Below are positions 40,417 to 52,716 of a DNA stretch of 54,380 bases, piece by piece; within the stretch, counting starts at the first letter, position 1, and each line of letters opens with the position of its first letter. Under the pieces are notes generated by a model, which made no database searches, was not told the origin of the DNA, and worked only from the letters and a program-made list of their open reading frames with translations. The position numbers were made by a program, and so were the translations under genes. Source of the DNA: Lachnospiraceae bacterium (GTDB taxonomy: Bacteria > Bacillota > Clostridia > Lachnospirales > Lachnospiraceae); NCBI GenBank assembly GCA_017532145.1, contig JAFXJR010000007.1:1-54380 (forward strand), in the 5' to 3' direction.

Positions 40417-40445
40417 TTGACTGACTATATTTTATATATTATATT
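40417..40445 (+). promoter_or_regulatory. Sigma-A-type promoter for the flagellin gene
   Basis: TTGACT (40417-40422) and TATATT (40440-40445) are 17 bp apart, giving a leader of about 160 nt. I looked for a sigma-28 flagellar promoter (TAAA-N15-GCCGATAA) between 40364 and 40610 and found none convincing. Confidence 0.45.
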
Positions 40446-40610: not shown

Positions 40611-42926
40611 ATGATAGTAAAAAATAATTTAATGGCAATCAATAATGAAAGACATCTGTCTATGGTCACTAATGTAGAGGCGAAAATAGCACAAAAGTTG
40701 TCCTCTGGTTATCGGATTAACAGGGCAGCAGATGATACTTCAGGTCTTTCCATCAGTGAGAAAATGAGAAGACAGATCCGGGGATTAGAACAGTCTTGCG
40801 TAAATGCCCAGGACGGAATTTCTCTGGTACAGTCTGCAGAAGGGGCTTTGCATGAGGTACATGAGGTATTACAAAGAATGAATGCTTTGGCAGTACAGGC
40901 TGCTAATGGTACCTATACGACCATAGAGCGTCAGGATATTCAGGATGAAGTAAAACAGTTAAAGTCAGAAATAGACAGAATATCTACCACTACGAAATTT
41001 AACGATGTAAATCTACTGGATGGAACCTGGGAAAGGCAGCAGAGTGTTACCAATCCCAGTCTGCAGTTTAAGGGAGTGGTGATACATCATGTAGAGACCA
41101 TACAGACTCCACAGGGAGCCAATACTATGGCCGGTTATGATAAATTAAAGAGTGATTTGAAAAATCAGATTGTTCCTCAGGCTGTGGCAGCCCTGGTAAG
41201 TACTTTTGATAATGTTTTTGGTTATCTGAACGGTTCTGATATTGGAATAGGACTGAGGCTTTACAATGATACAAGTACATCTGCAGTGGCCTATGTACGA
41301 CTGGGATTTGAGGGTACCTTAAGCAGTGTGAGTCTGGAATATAGTCTGGGGGTGAATCTGGCTTCACTCAATATTGATTCAGCAGGAAATCTGTCGGCAG
41401 CCAGCAGGGAGAAACTGGAAACTACCATCACCCATGAGATGATGCATGCACTGATGGATGAGGCTTTGACCAGCGGAATGACAGCTTTGTCTGCAGATTT
41501 GATTAGTATGACAGAAGGTTTTCCCTATTGGTTTAAAGAAGGAGTAGCTGAGGCAGCGGGAGGAGGATTATATGGCAGCAACAGCTGGGTAGAAGGTGCG
41601 TTGAGAATTACTCCTGCCAGCACAGAGGATGAGATTCGGGCTGCTTTGGGAAATGCATCTTACAGACTGAGTTCTGGAACCAGTGCTTCGGCCTATGGAA
41701 CAGGCTATCTGGCAGCAATGTATCTAGGTTATCTGGTAAATGGCAGTACCTCTATCAATCCTACAGCAGTGGCTGAAGGATTGGATAAGCTTTTAGCTGA
41801 GGTAAAGGGTGGTAAGAGTCTGAATCAGGCCATTGCAGACAATACTTCTTATAGTGGAATCACTGATTTTGAAAATAAGTTTGCTCAGGATGGTGCAGGT
41901 TTTGTAAAACAGTTGGTGACAGCTACAGGAAGTGGGGCAGGCAGTCTGGTAACAGGCGATTATACAGATAATGATTTGCTTCCCAATCAGGTAAGAGATG
42001 ATGATTTGTTTAGATTGGATGTGACCAAGGAAGCAGTGTTGAATGAGTATCCTTGGGATTATGTAGTAATATCAGGAGGATCTGCTACGGATCCGGGAAC
42101 TGCGGGACCTACCGGAAATGGAACCGGGGGGAATGCAGGAACCGGAGGAGCAGACGGAACGGGAACCGGAGGAGCAGACGGAACAGGAACCGGAGGAGCA
42201 GACGGAACAGGAGCTGGAGGAGCAGACGGAACGGGAACTGGAGGAGCAGACGGAACGGGAACCGGAGGAACAGGTGGAACGGGAACCGGAGGAACAGGTG
42301 GAACGGGAACTGGAGGAGCAGACGGAACGGGAACCGGAGGAACAGGTGGAACGGGAACCGGAGGAACAGGTGGAACGGGAACCGGAGGAGCAGGCGGTAC
42401 AGGAACCGGAGGAGCAGGCGGTACAGGAACCGGAGGCAATACAGGAACCGGGGGCAATACAGGAGCCGGGGGCAATACAGGAGCCGGGGGCAATACAGGA
42501 GCCGGAGGAGCAGGCGGTGTAATTTCCCGCGGAGGTTTAGTTTTACAGGTGGGTAATGAACAAAGTGAGACGCTGACAGTTTACATAAGTGCTGTTAATG
42601 TGGAAAAGCTGGGAATTAAGGATATAGATATGAGTACACAGAAGGGAGCAGGAGAAGCCATTTCCCAGATTAAGGAGGCCATTAATCTGGTATCCACACA
42701 AAGGGCAGAGCTGGGGGCTTATCAAAACAGGCTGGAGCATGTAATCTTCAATCTGGATAATGTAGTGGAAAATACACAGGCTGCTGAAAGTCGTATCAGG
42801 GATGCTGACATGGCAAAGGAAATGGTGGATTGGAGTAATCAGAAAATTCTTCGGCAGACGGGACAAGCTATGCTGGCAAATACCAAGCAATCCAAAAACG
42901 GAGTATTAATGCTGCTTCAGGCTTAA
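40611..42926 (+). CDS. Flagellin with metallopeptidase insert (flagellinolysin type) and Gly-rich repeat
   Basis: This 771-residue protein has conserved flagellin ends: residues 1-140 (NERHLSMV..EAKIAQKLSSGYRINRAADDTSGLSISEKMR) and 665-771 (ESRIRDADMAKEMVDWSNQKILRQTGQAML). The variable middle carries a gluzincin-like zinc protease: HEMMH at 275-279 with Glu276 catalytic, then WFKEGVAEAAGG with Glu310 as the probable third ligand and Glu314 behind it. Known flagellinolysins place such a domain here and make a proteolytic filament. Residues 510-633 are almost pure Gly/Thr/Ala/Asp/Asn from a 24-bp tandem repeat, which is unusual. The gene stands alone between two metal ATPases, without other flagellar genes. 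Confidence 0.9.
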   Translation: MIVKNNLMAINNERHLSMVTNVEAKIAQKLSSGYRINRAADDTSGLSISEKMRRQIRGLEQSCVNAQDGISLVQSAEGALHEVHEVLQRMNALAVQAANGTYTTIERQDIQDEVKQLKSEIDRISTTTKFNDVNLLDGTWERQQSVTNPSLQFKGVVIHHVETIQTPQGANTMAGYDKLKSDLKNQIVPQAVAALVSTFDNVFGYLNGSDIGIGLRLYNDTSTSAVAYVRLGFEGTLSSVSLEYSLGVNLASLNIDSAGNLSAASREKLETTITHEMMHALMDEALTSGMTALSADLISMTEGFPYWFKEGVAEAAGGGLYGSNSWVEGALRITPASTEDEIRAALGNASYRLSSGTSASAYGTGYLAAMYLGYLVNGSTSINPTAVAEGLDKLLAEVKGGKSLNQAIADNTSYSGITDFENKFAQDGAGFVKQLVTATGSGAGSLVTGDYTDNDLLPNQVRDDDLFRLDVTKEAVLNEYPWDYVVISGGSATDPGTAGPTGNGTGGNAGTGGADGTGTGGADGTGTGGADGTGAGGADGTGTGGADGTGTGGTGGTGTGGTGGTGTGGADGTGTGGTGGTGTGGTGGTGTGGAGGTGTGGAGGTGTGGNTGTGGNTGAGGNTGAGGNTGAGGAGGVISRGGLVLQVGNEQSETLTVYISAVNVEKLGIKDIDMSTQKGAGEAISQIKEAINLVSTQRAELGAYQNRLEHVIFNLDNVVENTQAAESRIRDADMAKEMVDWSNQKILRQTGQAMLANTKQSKNGVLMLLQA
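42138..42509 (+). repeat. In-frame tandem repeat in flagellin: 12 x 24 bp then 4 x 18 bp
   Basis: Twelve 24-bp units (42138-42425) encode variants of GTGGADGT (also GTGGTGGT, GTGGAGGT). After GTGG, four 18-bp units (42438-42509) encode NTGTGG or NTGAGG. Unit lengths are multiples of three, so copy-number change keeps the frame. The GGAACCGGAGGA core makes all frames open, giving false ORFs on both strands. Confidence 0.93.
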
Positions 42927-47803: not shown

Positions 47804-47976
47804 AATTACAGATAATGGAAGCGGATTGTTACTGATTTATGATTAATCAGGCAAAACCAGGTTTTATGAGTATGGGAAAATAAGGTAATTTTGCTGTTAC
47901 TTATAGGATGTGGTTTTTTTATTATTGAGAACAAACCGTGACCACCCTATACCAATTCATGAAGGAGGAGGACAAA

Positions 47977-50900
47977 ATGGTAAGGAGAAAGTCCAGATGG
48001 ATGAGGCTAATGGCCACATTACTGGTGTGTGGAATGGTGATTCCGGTACCTGCACTGCCGGGAGGAGCAGCGGCAGCTGAGGTAGCAGCTGTAGAAGAGG
48101 TACTGGTGAAGAATACTACGACAACTACAGAGACTACAGATGTGAATCTGAGTCGTACAGCGACAGCCAGTGCAGATAGTGTAGAGGATAATGCTGCAAG
48201 TTTTGTTGCTGGAAAGGCTAATGATGGAGACAGTACAACCCGTTGGGCAAGTTCTACTTCCGGTACTTCCCACTGGCTACAGCTAGCCTGGGATACAGCA
48301 AAGACGATTAAGACAGTCAATATTCACTGGGAAAGAACCAATGCTACCAGCTATAAATTGCAGAAATCTGAAGATGGCACAACTTGGGAGGATGTGCAGA
48401 CCTTTGATACTGCTCCCACAACTCATAGACAAAAGATTATCTTGACAGATGAAATTAATACCAAGTATCTGCGTCTGCAGATTGATGCATTTAATAGTAA
48501 AGGAGTAAAAGAGGATGGCTCTGAGGTAACCTGGAATACAGTCAGCGTATTTGAGATGGAAACCTATGCTACAATTCCGGTACAGAGTCCTCAGGAACTT
48601 GCAAATAGTTTGGAACTTCCGGAAAGGATTGAAACGGATACTCAAACATTTACATTACCTGAAGTACCAGAAGGATTTACTATTAACTTTATTGGTGCGG
48701 ATTACGAGCAGATTATAGCCAGAGACCGTTCGGTATATCATCCTTTGGTAGACAAGACGGTTAAGATGAACTTTGAAATTGTCAGAACATCAGATAATCT
48801 TAAAGTAACCTCTAAGGAGTATAGTATAGTAGTGGCTGGTACACATACTCCGGCTGAGACAGACAATGCAAAGCCGGCAGTGATTCCTGAGCTGGCAGAG
48901 TGGAAGGGCGGCAGCGGAAATTTTGAAATTACAGACAGCAGCCGTATTGTGGTAGCAACTAAGGATGAAACAGTACTTAAGCCTGTAGCAGAAGAATTTA
49001 AGGCAGACTATGAGGATATCACAGGAAGAACCATAGAAATTGTCTATGCGGATACGGCAAATGCAGGTGACTTCTTCCTTGCCCTTCAAAGTGCTGAAAC
49101 AAAGGATATGAAGCTGGATAAGGAAGGCTACTATATGACTATTGGGGATAAGGTAGAAGTAAAGGCAGAGGAAAATGCCGGAATCTATTGGTCTACCAGA
49201 ACGATTCTGCAGATTTTAAAGCAGAATGGCACTACTATTCCTCAGGGTACTACCAGAGACTATCCCAGGTATGCAGTAAGAGGTTTTATGCTGGATATCG
49301 GCAGACGGCCCTTCTCTAAAAAGATCGTGGATGAAGTTGCCAAAAATATGGCTTGGTATAAGATGAATGATTTCCAGCTGCATTTGAATGATAACTTTAT
49401 CTTTTTGGAAGACTACCCTGATGGAAATTTGGCAGGTAAAATGAGTGCTTATGAAGGCTTCCGTCTGGAATCCTCTATTAAAGAAGGCGGTGCAGATGGT
49501 TTATATAAGGCAGATTTGACCAGTCATGATTTCTATTATACCAAAGATGAAATGCGTACCATGATTCAGGATTATAGAAAGTTGGGAATCAATGTGGTAC
49601 CGGAGATTGATACACCTGCTCATTCCTTATCTCTGACTAAGACCAGACCTGATTTACGGATGGGAGATACTTATAGGGATCCTGACCATCTGAATTTAAG
49701 AAAAACTGGTGATAATGCTAAATACGATGAATCTTTGGAATATGTAAAGACCATCTGGGATGAGTATCTGACAGGAGAAAATCGTGTCTTTGATGAAGAA
49801 ACCATTATCAACATTGGTACAGACGAGTATAGTGCTACATATACTGAGGAGTTCCGTCAGTTTACCGATGATATGCTGAAGTATGCCCAGTCCAAGGTGG
49901 AAAGAGTACGCCTTTGGGGAAGTTTGACCATGAGGGCAGGAAACGGCAGTACATCTGTCAGGTCGGAAAGTGATGATACTGGTGTAAATGGTGCAGGTAC
50001 CAAGGTAGAAATGATGATGTGGAACAGAAGCTGGGCAAATACCAAGTCCATGTACGACCAGGGCTATGCTATGGTGGATATCAATGATGGTAACCTTTAC
50101 ATTGTTCCTGCTGCAGGTTATTACTATGATTATCTGGGTAAATCAGCGATGTATAACTATGACCCCGGAAAGAATATGGGACTTCCTACAGGTTCTGAGC
50201 AGGTACTGGGCGGCTCCTATGCCATCTGGAACGATATGGTGGATAAGAGGGCTAATGGTCTTTCCGAGATGGAAATCTATGACAGATTCTATGATGCAGC
50301 CGGTATGATTGCCTGCGGACTCTGGGGAGGCAACAGCAGCCAGTTTGATACTGCTGTGGAGCTGAGAGACACTTTGGGAGCAGCACCTCGTACCAATGCT
50401 TATGATAAGGTGGAAAGTGCAGGAGATACTGTAGTTTCCTATGAATTTGAAGGTAACTATGAGGATTCCTCTGAAAATGGTTATGATGCAAAGGATGGCT
50501 CTAATACTACGGTAGAAGATGGTCAGTTAAATTTAAATGGTGATGCAAGCTGGGCAGAGACACCCATTCAGAAGGTTGGAAGCTGGGGAGATGGAAAGAG
50601 TCTGAGCTTTGATATTGAGCTGACAGAAGCACCTCAGCCGGGAGATATTCTCTTTGAGGCAGATGCAGAATATGAAACTCACAATATCCGTATTATGGAT
50701 GATGGATGTCTGGGCTTTAGCAGAGAAGGTTATGATTATACCTTTGGTTATAAGATTCCTTTAAATGAAAAGGTAACGCTGACCATTGAGGCATCTCAGG
50801 GAAGTACTGCTCTGTATTCCTCCAAGACAGGAAAACGTGCTTATGCAGCAGTAGGAAGCTTTACTTATGAGGGTGATGTAAAGGCTACCGGTCTTACCCG

Positions 50901-52716
50901 GTCTGCTATGTCTTTGCCTTTGGAAAGAATCGGTTCCAAGACCAATGCCATTTCCGCAAAGCTGGACAATATTGTGGTAGGAGCAATAGAAGAATGGGAC
51001 AAGGATGCGAATGCGATTCCTTCTGCGCAATTGACAGTAACTTCTGATAATCAGCAAAATGGAGAAGGAATTGAGAAAGCCTTTGATAATAATCTGCAAA
51101 CCATATGGCATTCTCAGTATACTCCTAAGAAGAATTTACCTGCAGAAATTATCATTAATATGGCACAGGATTATATGGTAGAGGGTATCTATTATCATAC
51201 CAGACCCGAAGGTACCAATGGTAATATTACCAAGTTCTCCCTTTATTATGAGAATGAAAATGGTGAATGGACTGCTTTGGCAGAGGATGCTGTATGGTCT
51301 GGTGATAGTGGGGAAAAGACCCTGTTCTTTGACCCTGTAACGGCTTCCAAAATTAAGATAGTGGTAAAAGAAGGCGCAGGCGGCTTCGGAAGTGCGGCAG
51401 AGATTAAGCTATTGGAAGCAAAGAGGTTTGACTTTGCAGCAACTGCAGAAGGAAATGGTACTGCTACAGTATCCAAAGAAACAGCCTCACAAGGAGAAAA
51501 AATAACTTTCCAGGCAGAGGCTGCCGAGGGATTTGAATTTAGTGGCTGGTATAATGCTGAGGGAAGTCTTGTAAGTAAGGATGCAAGCTATACCATAACA
51601 GCCGGAGAAAGCATGACATTGACAGCTAAGTTCCAGGAGAAGAGTGTTTCAGTAACCTTCAAGGTAACGATTGATGGCAAGGAAAGCATTGTCAATCAGG
51701 GTGAAACGGTTGCCAAGCCTGCAGACCCTACAAAGGAAGGCCATAAGTTCCTGGGTTGGGAGGTAGAGAGTACAGGAAAAATCTTTGATTTTACTACACC
51801 GATTACCTCTGATTTAGTACTGACTGCTAAGTTTGAGAAGCTGCCCGAGCAAACTGATCAGACAAAGGAAACGGTAGCGGCTCCTAAGTTCAGTATAGCT
51901 GGCGGAACCTATAACAAGGCCCAGAGTGTAGCGATTACTTCTGCTACGGCTGGTGCAACCATCTATTATACCACAGATGGAAAGACTCCTACTACAGCCA
52001 GCACCAAGTATACAAAGGCACTGACAGTAAGTAAGGATACCACCATCAAAGCAATTGCGGTAAAGACAGGAATGAACGACAGTACCGTAACTACCGCATC
52101 TTATGTAATTAAGGTACAAACGGATAAACCGCAAAGTAAGCCCTTCCCTTTCGAGGATGTGGAGCAGATTGCTGGTAACTGGAAATATGAGAATGTAAAG
52201 TATGTATATGAAAACAACATTATGAATGGTATTTCTGGTACAAACCTGTTTAATCCGGATGGAAATCTGACCAGAGCCATGTTTGCTACAGTGCTTTACC
52301 GTATGGCAGGAAGTCCGGAGATTAGCTTTAGTCCCAAGTTTAAGGATGTTAAGGATGGACAGTACTATAGCAAAGCAATTATTTGGGCAAATGCCAAGGG
52401 TATTGTAGCTGGTTATACCGATGGAAACTATGGAGTAAACGATGATATTACCCGTGAGCAGATTGCCAAGATGCTGAATCTGTATGCAAAGGTACAGAAT
52501 TATGACATTAGTGCAAAGAAGGATTTGAGCAGCTTTACTGATGTGAAGAAGGTAAGTAACTGGGCAACTGAGTTTATGCAGTGGGCTGTTGCTGTAGAAA
52601 TGATTAGTGGCAAGCCTAATGATGATAAAACCTTCCGTCTTGATCCAGGAGGAAAGGCAACCAGAGCTGAGTGTGCAAAGATGCTGACTATGTTTATGAA
52701 AAGATATACAGAGTAA
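47977..52716 (+). CDS. Secreted SLH-anchored GH20 beta-N-acetylhexosaminidase
   Basis: This 1,579-residue surface enzyme probably removes N-acetylhexosamine from glycans. A signal peptide (RRKSRWMRLMATLLVCGMVIPVPALPGGAAA) is followed by an F5/8C-type carbohydrate module (about 57-200), the GH20 N-terminal domain (about 300-425) and the catalytic barrel from 429 (YAVRGFMLDIGRRPF) with the Asp616-Glu617 pair in NIGTDEYS. Then come a LamG-like region, a second F5/8C module, InlB/Flg_new-type repeats (SGWYNAEGS, FLGWEVES), a chitobiase C-terminal-like domain (IYYTTDGKTPTTAST) and three SLH domains (from about 1389) for cell-wall binding. GGAGGAGG fixes ATG 47977. GH20 also includes lacto-N-biosidases, so mucin or milk-glycan use is possible. 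Confidence 0.9.
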   Translation: MVRRKSRWMRLMATLLVCGMVIPVPALPGGAAAAEVAAVEEVLVKNTTTTTETTDVNLSRTATASADSVEDNAASFVAGKANDGDSTTRWASSTSGTSHWLQLAWDTAKTIKTVNIHWERTNATSYKLQKSEDGTTWEDVQTFDTAPTTHRQKIILTDEINTKYLRLQIDAFNSKGVKEDGSEVTWNTVSVFEMETYATIPVQSPQELANSLELPERIETDTQTFTLPEVPEGFTINFIGADYEQIIARDRSVYHPLVDKTVKMNFEIVRTSDNLKVTSKEYSIVVAGTHTPAETDNAKPAVIPELAEWKGGSGNFEITDSSRIVVATKDETVLKPVAEEFKADYEDITGRTIEIVYADTANAGDFFLALQSAETKDMKLDKEGYYMTIGDKVEVKAEENAGIYWSTRTILQILKQNGTTIPQGTTRDYPRYAVRGFMLDIGRRPFSKKIVDEVAKNMAWYKMNDFQLHLNDNFIFLEDYPDGNLAGKMSAYEGFRLESSIKEGGADGLYKADLTSHDFYYTKDEMRTMIQDYRKLGINVVPEIDTPAHSLSLTKTRPDLRMGDTYRDPDHLNLRKTGDNAKYDESLEYVKTIWDEYLTGENRVFDEETIINIGTDEYSATYTEEFRQFTDDMLKYAQSKVERVRLWGSLTMRAGNGSTSVRSESDDTGVNGAGTKVEMMMWNRSWANTKSMYDQGYAMVDINDGNLYIVPAAGYYYDYLGKSAMYNYDPGKNMGLPTGSEQVLGGSYAIWNDMVDKRANGLSEMEIYDRFYDAAGMIACGLWGGNSSQFDTAVELRDTLGAAPRTNAYDKVESAGDTVVSYEFEGNYEDSSENGYDAKDGSNTTVEDGQLNLNGDASWAETPIQKVGSWGDGKSLSFDIELTEAPQPGDILFEADAEYETHNIRIMDDGCLGFSREGYDYTFGYKIPLNEKVTLTIEASQGSTALYSSKTGKRAYAAVGSFTYEGDVKATGLTRSAMSLPLERIGSKTNAISAKLDNIVVGAIEEWDKDANAIPSAQLTVTSDNQQNGEGIEKAFDNNLQTIWHSQYTPKKNLPAEIIINMAQDYMVEGIYYHTRPEGTNGNITKFSLYYENENGEWTALAEDAVWSGDSGEKTLFFDPVTASKIKIVVKEGAGGFGSAAEIKLLEAKRFDFAATAEGNGTATVSKETASQGEKITFQAEAAEGFEFSGWYNAEGSLVSKDASYTITAGESMTLTAKFQEKSVSVTFKVTIDGKESIVNQGETVAKPADPTKEGHKFLGWEVESTGKIFDFTTPITSDLVLTAKFEKLPEQTDQTKETVAAPKFSIAGGTYNKAQSVAITSATAGATIYYTTDGKTPTTASTKYTKALTVSKDTTIKAIAVKTGMNDSTVTTASYVIKVQTDKPQSKPFPFEDVEQIAGNWKYENVKYVYENNIMNGISGTNLFNPDGNLTRAMFATVLYRMAGSPEISFSPKFKDVKDGQYYSKAIIWANAKGIVAGYTDGNYGVNDDITREQIAKMLNLYAKVQNYDISAKKDLSSFTDVKKVSNWATEFMQWAVAVEMISGKPNDDKTFRLDPGGKATRAECAKMLTMFMKRYTE

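Follow-up and report, generated by a model that had tools for sequence, protein, structure and literature searches.

What kind of protein results when a flagellin is interrupted by a peptidase-like domain and a long run of glycine and threonine, and what does that run contribute? The question is raised by a gene in a stretch of 54,380 nucleotides from a Lachnospiraceae bacterium (contig JAFXJR010000007.1, positions 1 to 54,380, GenBank assembly GCA_017532145.1), which we call the window. The source genome is a draft in 134 contigs, 87.41% complete, and its habitat, judging from relatives in goat caecum and water deer rectum, is probably the gut. We consider it very probable that the gene encodes a flagellinolysin of the filament, with a collagenase-related peptidase on a short N-side tether and a Gly/Thr tract that serves as a slack loop. 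The kind of protein is already known, and the long repeat linker is an extreme within it. The gene and its principal domains and motifs are as follows.

40611..42926, + strand: flagellinolysin gene, 771 amino acids from an ATG start, one of two in the genome
40617..41030, + strand: flagellin N-terminal D0/D1 domain, residues 3-140 (Pfam PF00669, E 1.9e-40)
41088..42074, + strand: zinc-peptidase domain, residues 160-488 approximately, placed by homology and model, the confident part of the model running to about residue 500
41433..41447, + strand: HEMMH zinc motif, residues 275-279 (His275, Glu276, His279), read from the sequence
41529..41552, + strand: WFKEGVAE motif from residue 307, with the predicted third ligand Glu310 and basement Ala313, aligning with WFDEGTAE of ColG
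42663..42917, + strand: flagellin C-terminal domain, residues 685-769 (Pfam PF00700, E 5.3e-21)

Flagellin domains flank the insert, the N-terminal one being modelled by AlphaFold2 as helices at residues 2-31, 43-99 and 104-127. This is the layout of the flagellinolysins (FlaMP family) described for C. haemolyticum FliA(H) and Hylemonella gracilis HgrFlaMP (PMC5595980, PMC7643111), which are characterized by flagellin ends, a metallopeptidase in the variable region, an HExxH motif with a downstream Glu and basement Ala, and collagenase as the nearest solved relative. The window protein shares all of these and holds His275, Glu276, His279, Glu310 and Ala313; the spacing from His279 to Glu310 is 31, as against 25 in FliA(H) (237 to 262; PMC5595980). 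The initial annotation had placed HEMMH at 275-279 and WFKEG with Glu310 inside a flagellin, and its residue numbers are correct.

The peptidase was compared across an alignment (A1) of 22 rows, made up of loci from searches of relatives together with the window protein and its paralogue on contig C75. Frames of more than 300 amino acids with HE[MLV][MTLV]H were admitted, so the invariance of HExxH in A1 is partly a product of selection. Left out were L027 (the same protein as L023), L031 and L033 (near L030), L042 (HEMIH, missed by the filter, its frame cut at the locus end), L044 (internal stop), L045 and L052 (start cut or mis-set), L047 (very long), L053 (HGLMH), and the non-flagellin proteins L037, L038, L050, L051, L057 and L058; L063 was found later. 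Twenty peptidase residues are invariant across these preselected rows. Glu310 is present in 22/22 and Ala313 in at least 90%, and among 36 loci to which no HExxH filter was applied 35 have HExxH followed by W(F/Y)xEG.

The insert of the window protein contained no Pfam family above cut-off; the 22 peptidases scanned alone gave only weak zincin matches (best E 0.0017, to M48), and Peptidase_M9 was without a match in the window domain and reached E 0.063 in one of the 22. The structure listing for the full chain was filled by flagellins and is uninformative on the peptidase fold, and the window peptidase alone gave weak matches in the PDB (best E 0.039), so that a profile was needed. With the 22-domain profile (A4) the clostridial M9B collagenases ColG and ColT were matched at E 0.0012 to 0.004 with both zinc motifs aligned, HEMMH over HEYTH and WFKEG over WFDEG. 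The aligned segment covers only about 70 residues around the zinc site, and the collagenases, unlike the window family, have no flagellin ends. A relationship of the flagellinolysin peptidase to collagenase has been reported by Eckhard et al. (PMC5595980). A further comparison was made with hhalign, flagellin ends excluded, between the 22-row peptidase columns and L059-L061, three proteins above the cut-off of the NCBIfam flagellinolysin model NF033876 (3/391 genomes pass): it gave 99.3% at E 1.1e-20 over 242 columns with the zinc motifs in register, and the reversed control gave 0.7%.

These results bear out the initial call of a flagellinolysin-type protease flagellin with three predicted zinc ligands, and the comparison with flagellinolysins that it had proposed finds the predicted third ligand present. 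The ColG alignment and the 35/36 loci rule out a missing third ligand. With every motif residue present the peptidase looks catalytically intact. The window protein is a real flagellinolysin, probably an active one, that belongs to a divergent branch and carries a long linker of repeats. As a separate observation, residue 314 (41550-41552) is Glu in the window and Gln in at least 90% of the 22 rows; Glu also occupies this position in ColG and in L059-L061.

How the peptidase is joined to the flagellin is best seen in the AlphaFold2 model of the full chain, computed with the 22-row alignment (mean predicted local distance difference test score, pLDDT, 75.5; predicted template modelling score, pTM, 0.51). 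Ten-residue blocks between 161 and 500 average pLDDT 75 to 97, and two stretches of the insert fall below 50, one of 16 residues on the N-side and one of 137 on the C-side.

41040..41087, + strand: short N-side linker, residues 144-159, the predicted shorter tether of the peptidase (pLDDT below 50 in the AlphaFold2 model)
42117..42527, + strand: predicted disordered Gly/Thr tract, residues 503-639, the long C-side linker (pLDDT below 50, and composition)
42138..42436, + strand: 24-bp tandem array of GTGGADGT-type units, 12.5 copies (Tandem Repeats Finder)
42422..42505, + strand: 18-bp tandem array of NTGAGG-type units, 4.7 copies (Tandem Repeats Finder)

A polypeptide spans at most 3.6 Å per residue, and at that limit the predicted linkers would reach less than 60 Å on the N-side and nearly 500 Å on the C-side. 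Because both ends are anchored in the same D1 domain and the N-side linker is the shorter, it is this linker that would set the reach of the peptidase. The tract had been taken at first for an added stalk. Since the shorter tether limits the movement of the peptidase, the tract would instead form a slack loop as long as the N-side stays uncut, and in the intact chain its 137 residues, set against about 16, would not extend the reach.

The sequence of events that we favour is then the following. The D0/D1 helices would copolymerise with the cell's ordinary flagellin. The peptidase, an insertion at the D1 tip, would face the outside of the filament, kept near the shaft by the 16-residue N-side linker. 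On the C-side the Gly/Thr tract would complete the chain in the form of a long, slack loop, so that neither the position nor the folding of the peptidase need depend on D1. As the tract contains no large hydrophobic residue, it would also offer little that suits the specificity of the enzyme itself, and so may resist self-cleavage.

Cutting of the N-side linker, by the enzyme itself or by another protease, would turn the tract into a true stalk or leash on which the peptidase could sweep tens of nanometres. The N-side stretch, approximately residues 144-160, contains Val, Leu and Phe, the type of site cut by the family, whose reported cleavage sites are at hydrophobic residues (PMC7643111), and the tract lacks large hydrophobics. 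The H. gracilis enzyme moreover trims itself by about 1-2 kDa with Ca and Zn (PMC7643111), but this was seen in an isolated recombinant domain and cleavage of the window protein is hypothetical. A C-side linker of only 0-8 residues in 7/22 rows argues that a leash is not general, and we regard the reading as very unlikely. Its more specific form, in which self-cleavage of the N-side linker leaves the enzyme held by a protease-proof tract with a reach set in each strain by repeat number, strikes us as more improbable still.

The initial annotation had noted GTGGADGT-type repeats before the C-terminal flagellin domain, and Tandem Repeats Finder confirms that they are real: the 24-bp array (92% match, score 430) and the 18-bp array (score 147) together occupy 368 bp (42138-42505, about 123 residues), the best array elsewhere in the window scoring 54 with the tract excluded. 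Residues 489-642 (n=154) comprise 81 Gly, 37 Thr, 16 Ala, 7 Asp and 6 Asn. Eight-residue units, with AD, TG and AG variants in blocks, extend over 510-613 and are followed by six-residue units. Because both unit lengths in the DNA are multiples of three, slippage can alter the length of the tract without breaking the frame, and the tract behaves as an in-frame minisatellite. The copy number in the window may be an assembly artefact of the draft genome.

The nearest comparison is with the flagellinolysin of a sister species (metagenome-assembled genome, MAG, SUG290; L023/L027), whose peptidase is 68% identical and which has a Gly/Thr tract at the same place. That tract consists of about 13 units of 18 bp (TGGTGG), giving 96 residues of (GGT)n, as against the 24-bp GTGGADGT units of the window. 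Across the 22 rows the C-side stretch varies from 0 to 322 residues. In nine it reaches at least 35 residues; Gly makes up about 35% or more of eight of these, and the remaining one (L041) carries a different kind of insert. Gly-rich linkers of at least 35 residues, differing in sequence and length, therefore occur in 7/21 other aligned relatives, and the supposition that the tract is an addition to the known design finds no support. Large hydrophobic residues number 0/148 in the C-side stretch of the window protein, 0/96 in the sister and 0 to 6 in the remaining six rows that are rich in Gly. None of the Gly-rich C-side linkers is longer than the window tract, which, as far as this evidence goes, would be the extreme of a recurrent feature and no new principle. 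The main-text descriptions of FlaMP proteins returned no such 137-residue Gly/Thr C-side linker in term searches (PMC5595980, PMC7643111), a comparison of descriptions and not of sequences.

In-frame slippage would lengthen and shorten the tract, keeping its composition and neither its length nor its sequence. It is quite possible, although we lean away from it, that this is the whole explanation and that the tract is neutral filler, a minisatellite born of replication slippage, which a surface loop tolerates and for which no role has been selected. The near-exact units, the different unit length in the sister species and row lengths that begin at 0 residues are what neutral slippage would give, and the family has Gly/Thr tracts in further reading frames, none with a flagellin motif, in 10 of the 397 genomes besides this one. 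Against this, a Gly-rich, hydrophobic-poor linker is found at the same spot in 8/22 rows with differing sequences, a retention that slippage from any seed alone does not favour.

The 37 threonines in 154 residues also suggest a carrier of O-glycans, and glycosyltransferase, LicD and nucleotidyl/aminotransferase genes follow a flagellin gene on contig C13 of the same genome. The linkers of relatives are often Thr-poor, however (Thr 0.00-0.15 in L036, L028, L032 and L035), no enzyme is tied to the window gene, and we think this role decidedly unlikely.

Two further interpretations of the tract were rejected. RTX calcium repeats are nonapeptides, GGxGxDxUx, with a hydrophobic residue; the tract has units of eight or six residues and no large hydrophobic residue. 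Nor is it a marker of flagellins: the GTGGTGGTG pattern was found in 11/397 family genomes, the window genome included, and in the other ten its frames carried no flagellin motif when 3-kb pieces were checked, three of these frames (L091, L097, L099) being shorter than 200 amino acids and perhaps not genes. With the tract as query, no other Gly/Thr tracts were found in the window genome.

Several observations weigh against the reading of a filament flagellinolysin with a slack loop. With NF033876 the window protein scores 193.7 bits, where the cut-off is 205, and through its flagellin ends it scores higher with six general flagellin models; the cut-off is a naming rule of NCBI, separate from the features of the FlaMP family, and since those features are present we regard the protein as a divergent member of that family rather than as one of the NF033876 equivalogs. 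In the relative L053 the HExxH motif is replaced by HGLMH and the protein is probably inactive, so inactive members probably exist in the family. At pTM 0.51 the model does not predict where the peptidase lies with respect to D1, and the slack-loop role is one that we infer from the topology of the modelled chain. Expression, secretion and incorporation into the filament are likewise presumed. The gene adjoins metal-ATPase genes rather than flagellar ones: upstream stand genes for two regulators, AraC and ArsR, and for a metal P-type ATPase, and downstream one for a P-type ATPase with heavy-metal domains. Finally, the best sigma-28-type site in the 350 bp upstream matches 8/12 positions of the consensus, an ordinary value for random stretches, and expression of the gene may be separate from that of the main flagellin.

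The sigma-28 scan is weak evidence, because a flagellin on contig C9 also reaches only 8. Best scores of 12 in the same genome were 9 for the C75 paralogue, which random stretches commonly reach as well, 12 for the short flagellin on C13 and 11 for a flagellin on C121; those of relatives were 8 (sister, L028, L032, L034), 10 (L035) and 11 (L030, L036), so some of them may have such a site. Among 2000 random stretches, held to a slightly stricter rule on the first four bases than the test, 15 reached 12/12 and 35 reached 11. A sigma-70-type site is likewise weak, 17 being found in the region against 16.6 expected from shuffles:

40417..40445, + strand: sigma-70-type promoter-like site TTGACT-17-TATATT, upstream of the gene (pattern scan; weak)

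The absence of a sigma-28-type site and the non-flagellar neighbours would fit a soluble, released protease, or a gene not expressed with the flagellum, with no part in the filament. So would the fact that this peptidase also occurs in proteins that are not flagellins, the dockerin protein L051 being one. We nevertheless judge this unlikely: D0/D1 is complete at both ends, with up to 54% identity to solved filament flagellins, and the flagellinolysin of C. haemolyticum sits in filaments (PMC5595980).

As read from translations, the upstream order AraC-ArsR-metal ATPase is kept in the sister species. A zinc link to the ArsR and P-type ATPase genes was considered and set aside, conserved order being found and no evidence of co-regulation; a conserved upstream control site was also rejected, since the sister's upstream region aligns poorly. 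Elsewhere in the window (47938-52716) a 1592-amino acid protein with GH20 hexosaminidase, F5/8C and S-layer domains fits a surface glycan degrader.

The second complete flagellinolysin of the genome (contig C75, L018:9908-12064) has HEMMH and WFVEG as well. It differs in being 49% identical over the peptidase, in having a 75-residue TTPGGG-type linker, and in grouping in the tree with a goat-caecum MAG and not with the window gene. The genes before it are not flagellar; by eye they look like genes for arginine synthesis. On C13 the short flagellin adjoins FliW, FlaG, FliD and FliS, and the glycosyltransferase, LicD and fused nucleotidyltransferase/aminotransferase genes after its gene (L020:10427-15604) are a possible flagellin-modification island. 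Besides the flagellin on C9 there is a 741-amino acid one on C121 (L019:10988-13213) with a different insert, which has repeated GGG and NN motifs and is beta-helix-like by eye; its sigma-28-type match lies about 300 bp upstream.

Peptidase matches, the window genome included, were found in 3/61 relatives and in 19/397 family genomes; six peptide patterns taken from the window protein, run once against species genomes in a scan that covers near relatives only, gave 12 loci. One of the relatives, L028, comes from the cultured Clostridium porci. In the tree the window and sister proteins group with support 99/98 and, with five others, 98/92, one of the five (L063) not being a flagellin. L047 forms a long branch, L044, L053 and L059-L061 were filtered out, and L045, labelled secreted, is a flagellin with a cut frame. 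In the frames examined the peptidase stands without flagellin ends in L037, L038, L050, L051, L057, L058 and L063; L051:46-2220 also has a type I dockerin, together with an APTT repeat of some length. Giant flagellin-like frames of more than 1500 amino acids, running beyond the locus end, lie beside flagellinolysin genes in two other genomes (L030:6457-10989, L034:6379-11025).

These findings point to enzymatic flagella in Lachnospiraceae-type bacteria, with the peptidase in 19/397 family genomes, some of which have it only in non-flagellin proteins. Two different flagellinolysins can occur within one genome, and flagellins share the peptidase domain with exported proteins of other kinds. With its unequal linkers the window protein lends itself to a clear test of the way in which a filament displays an enzyme.
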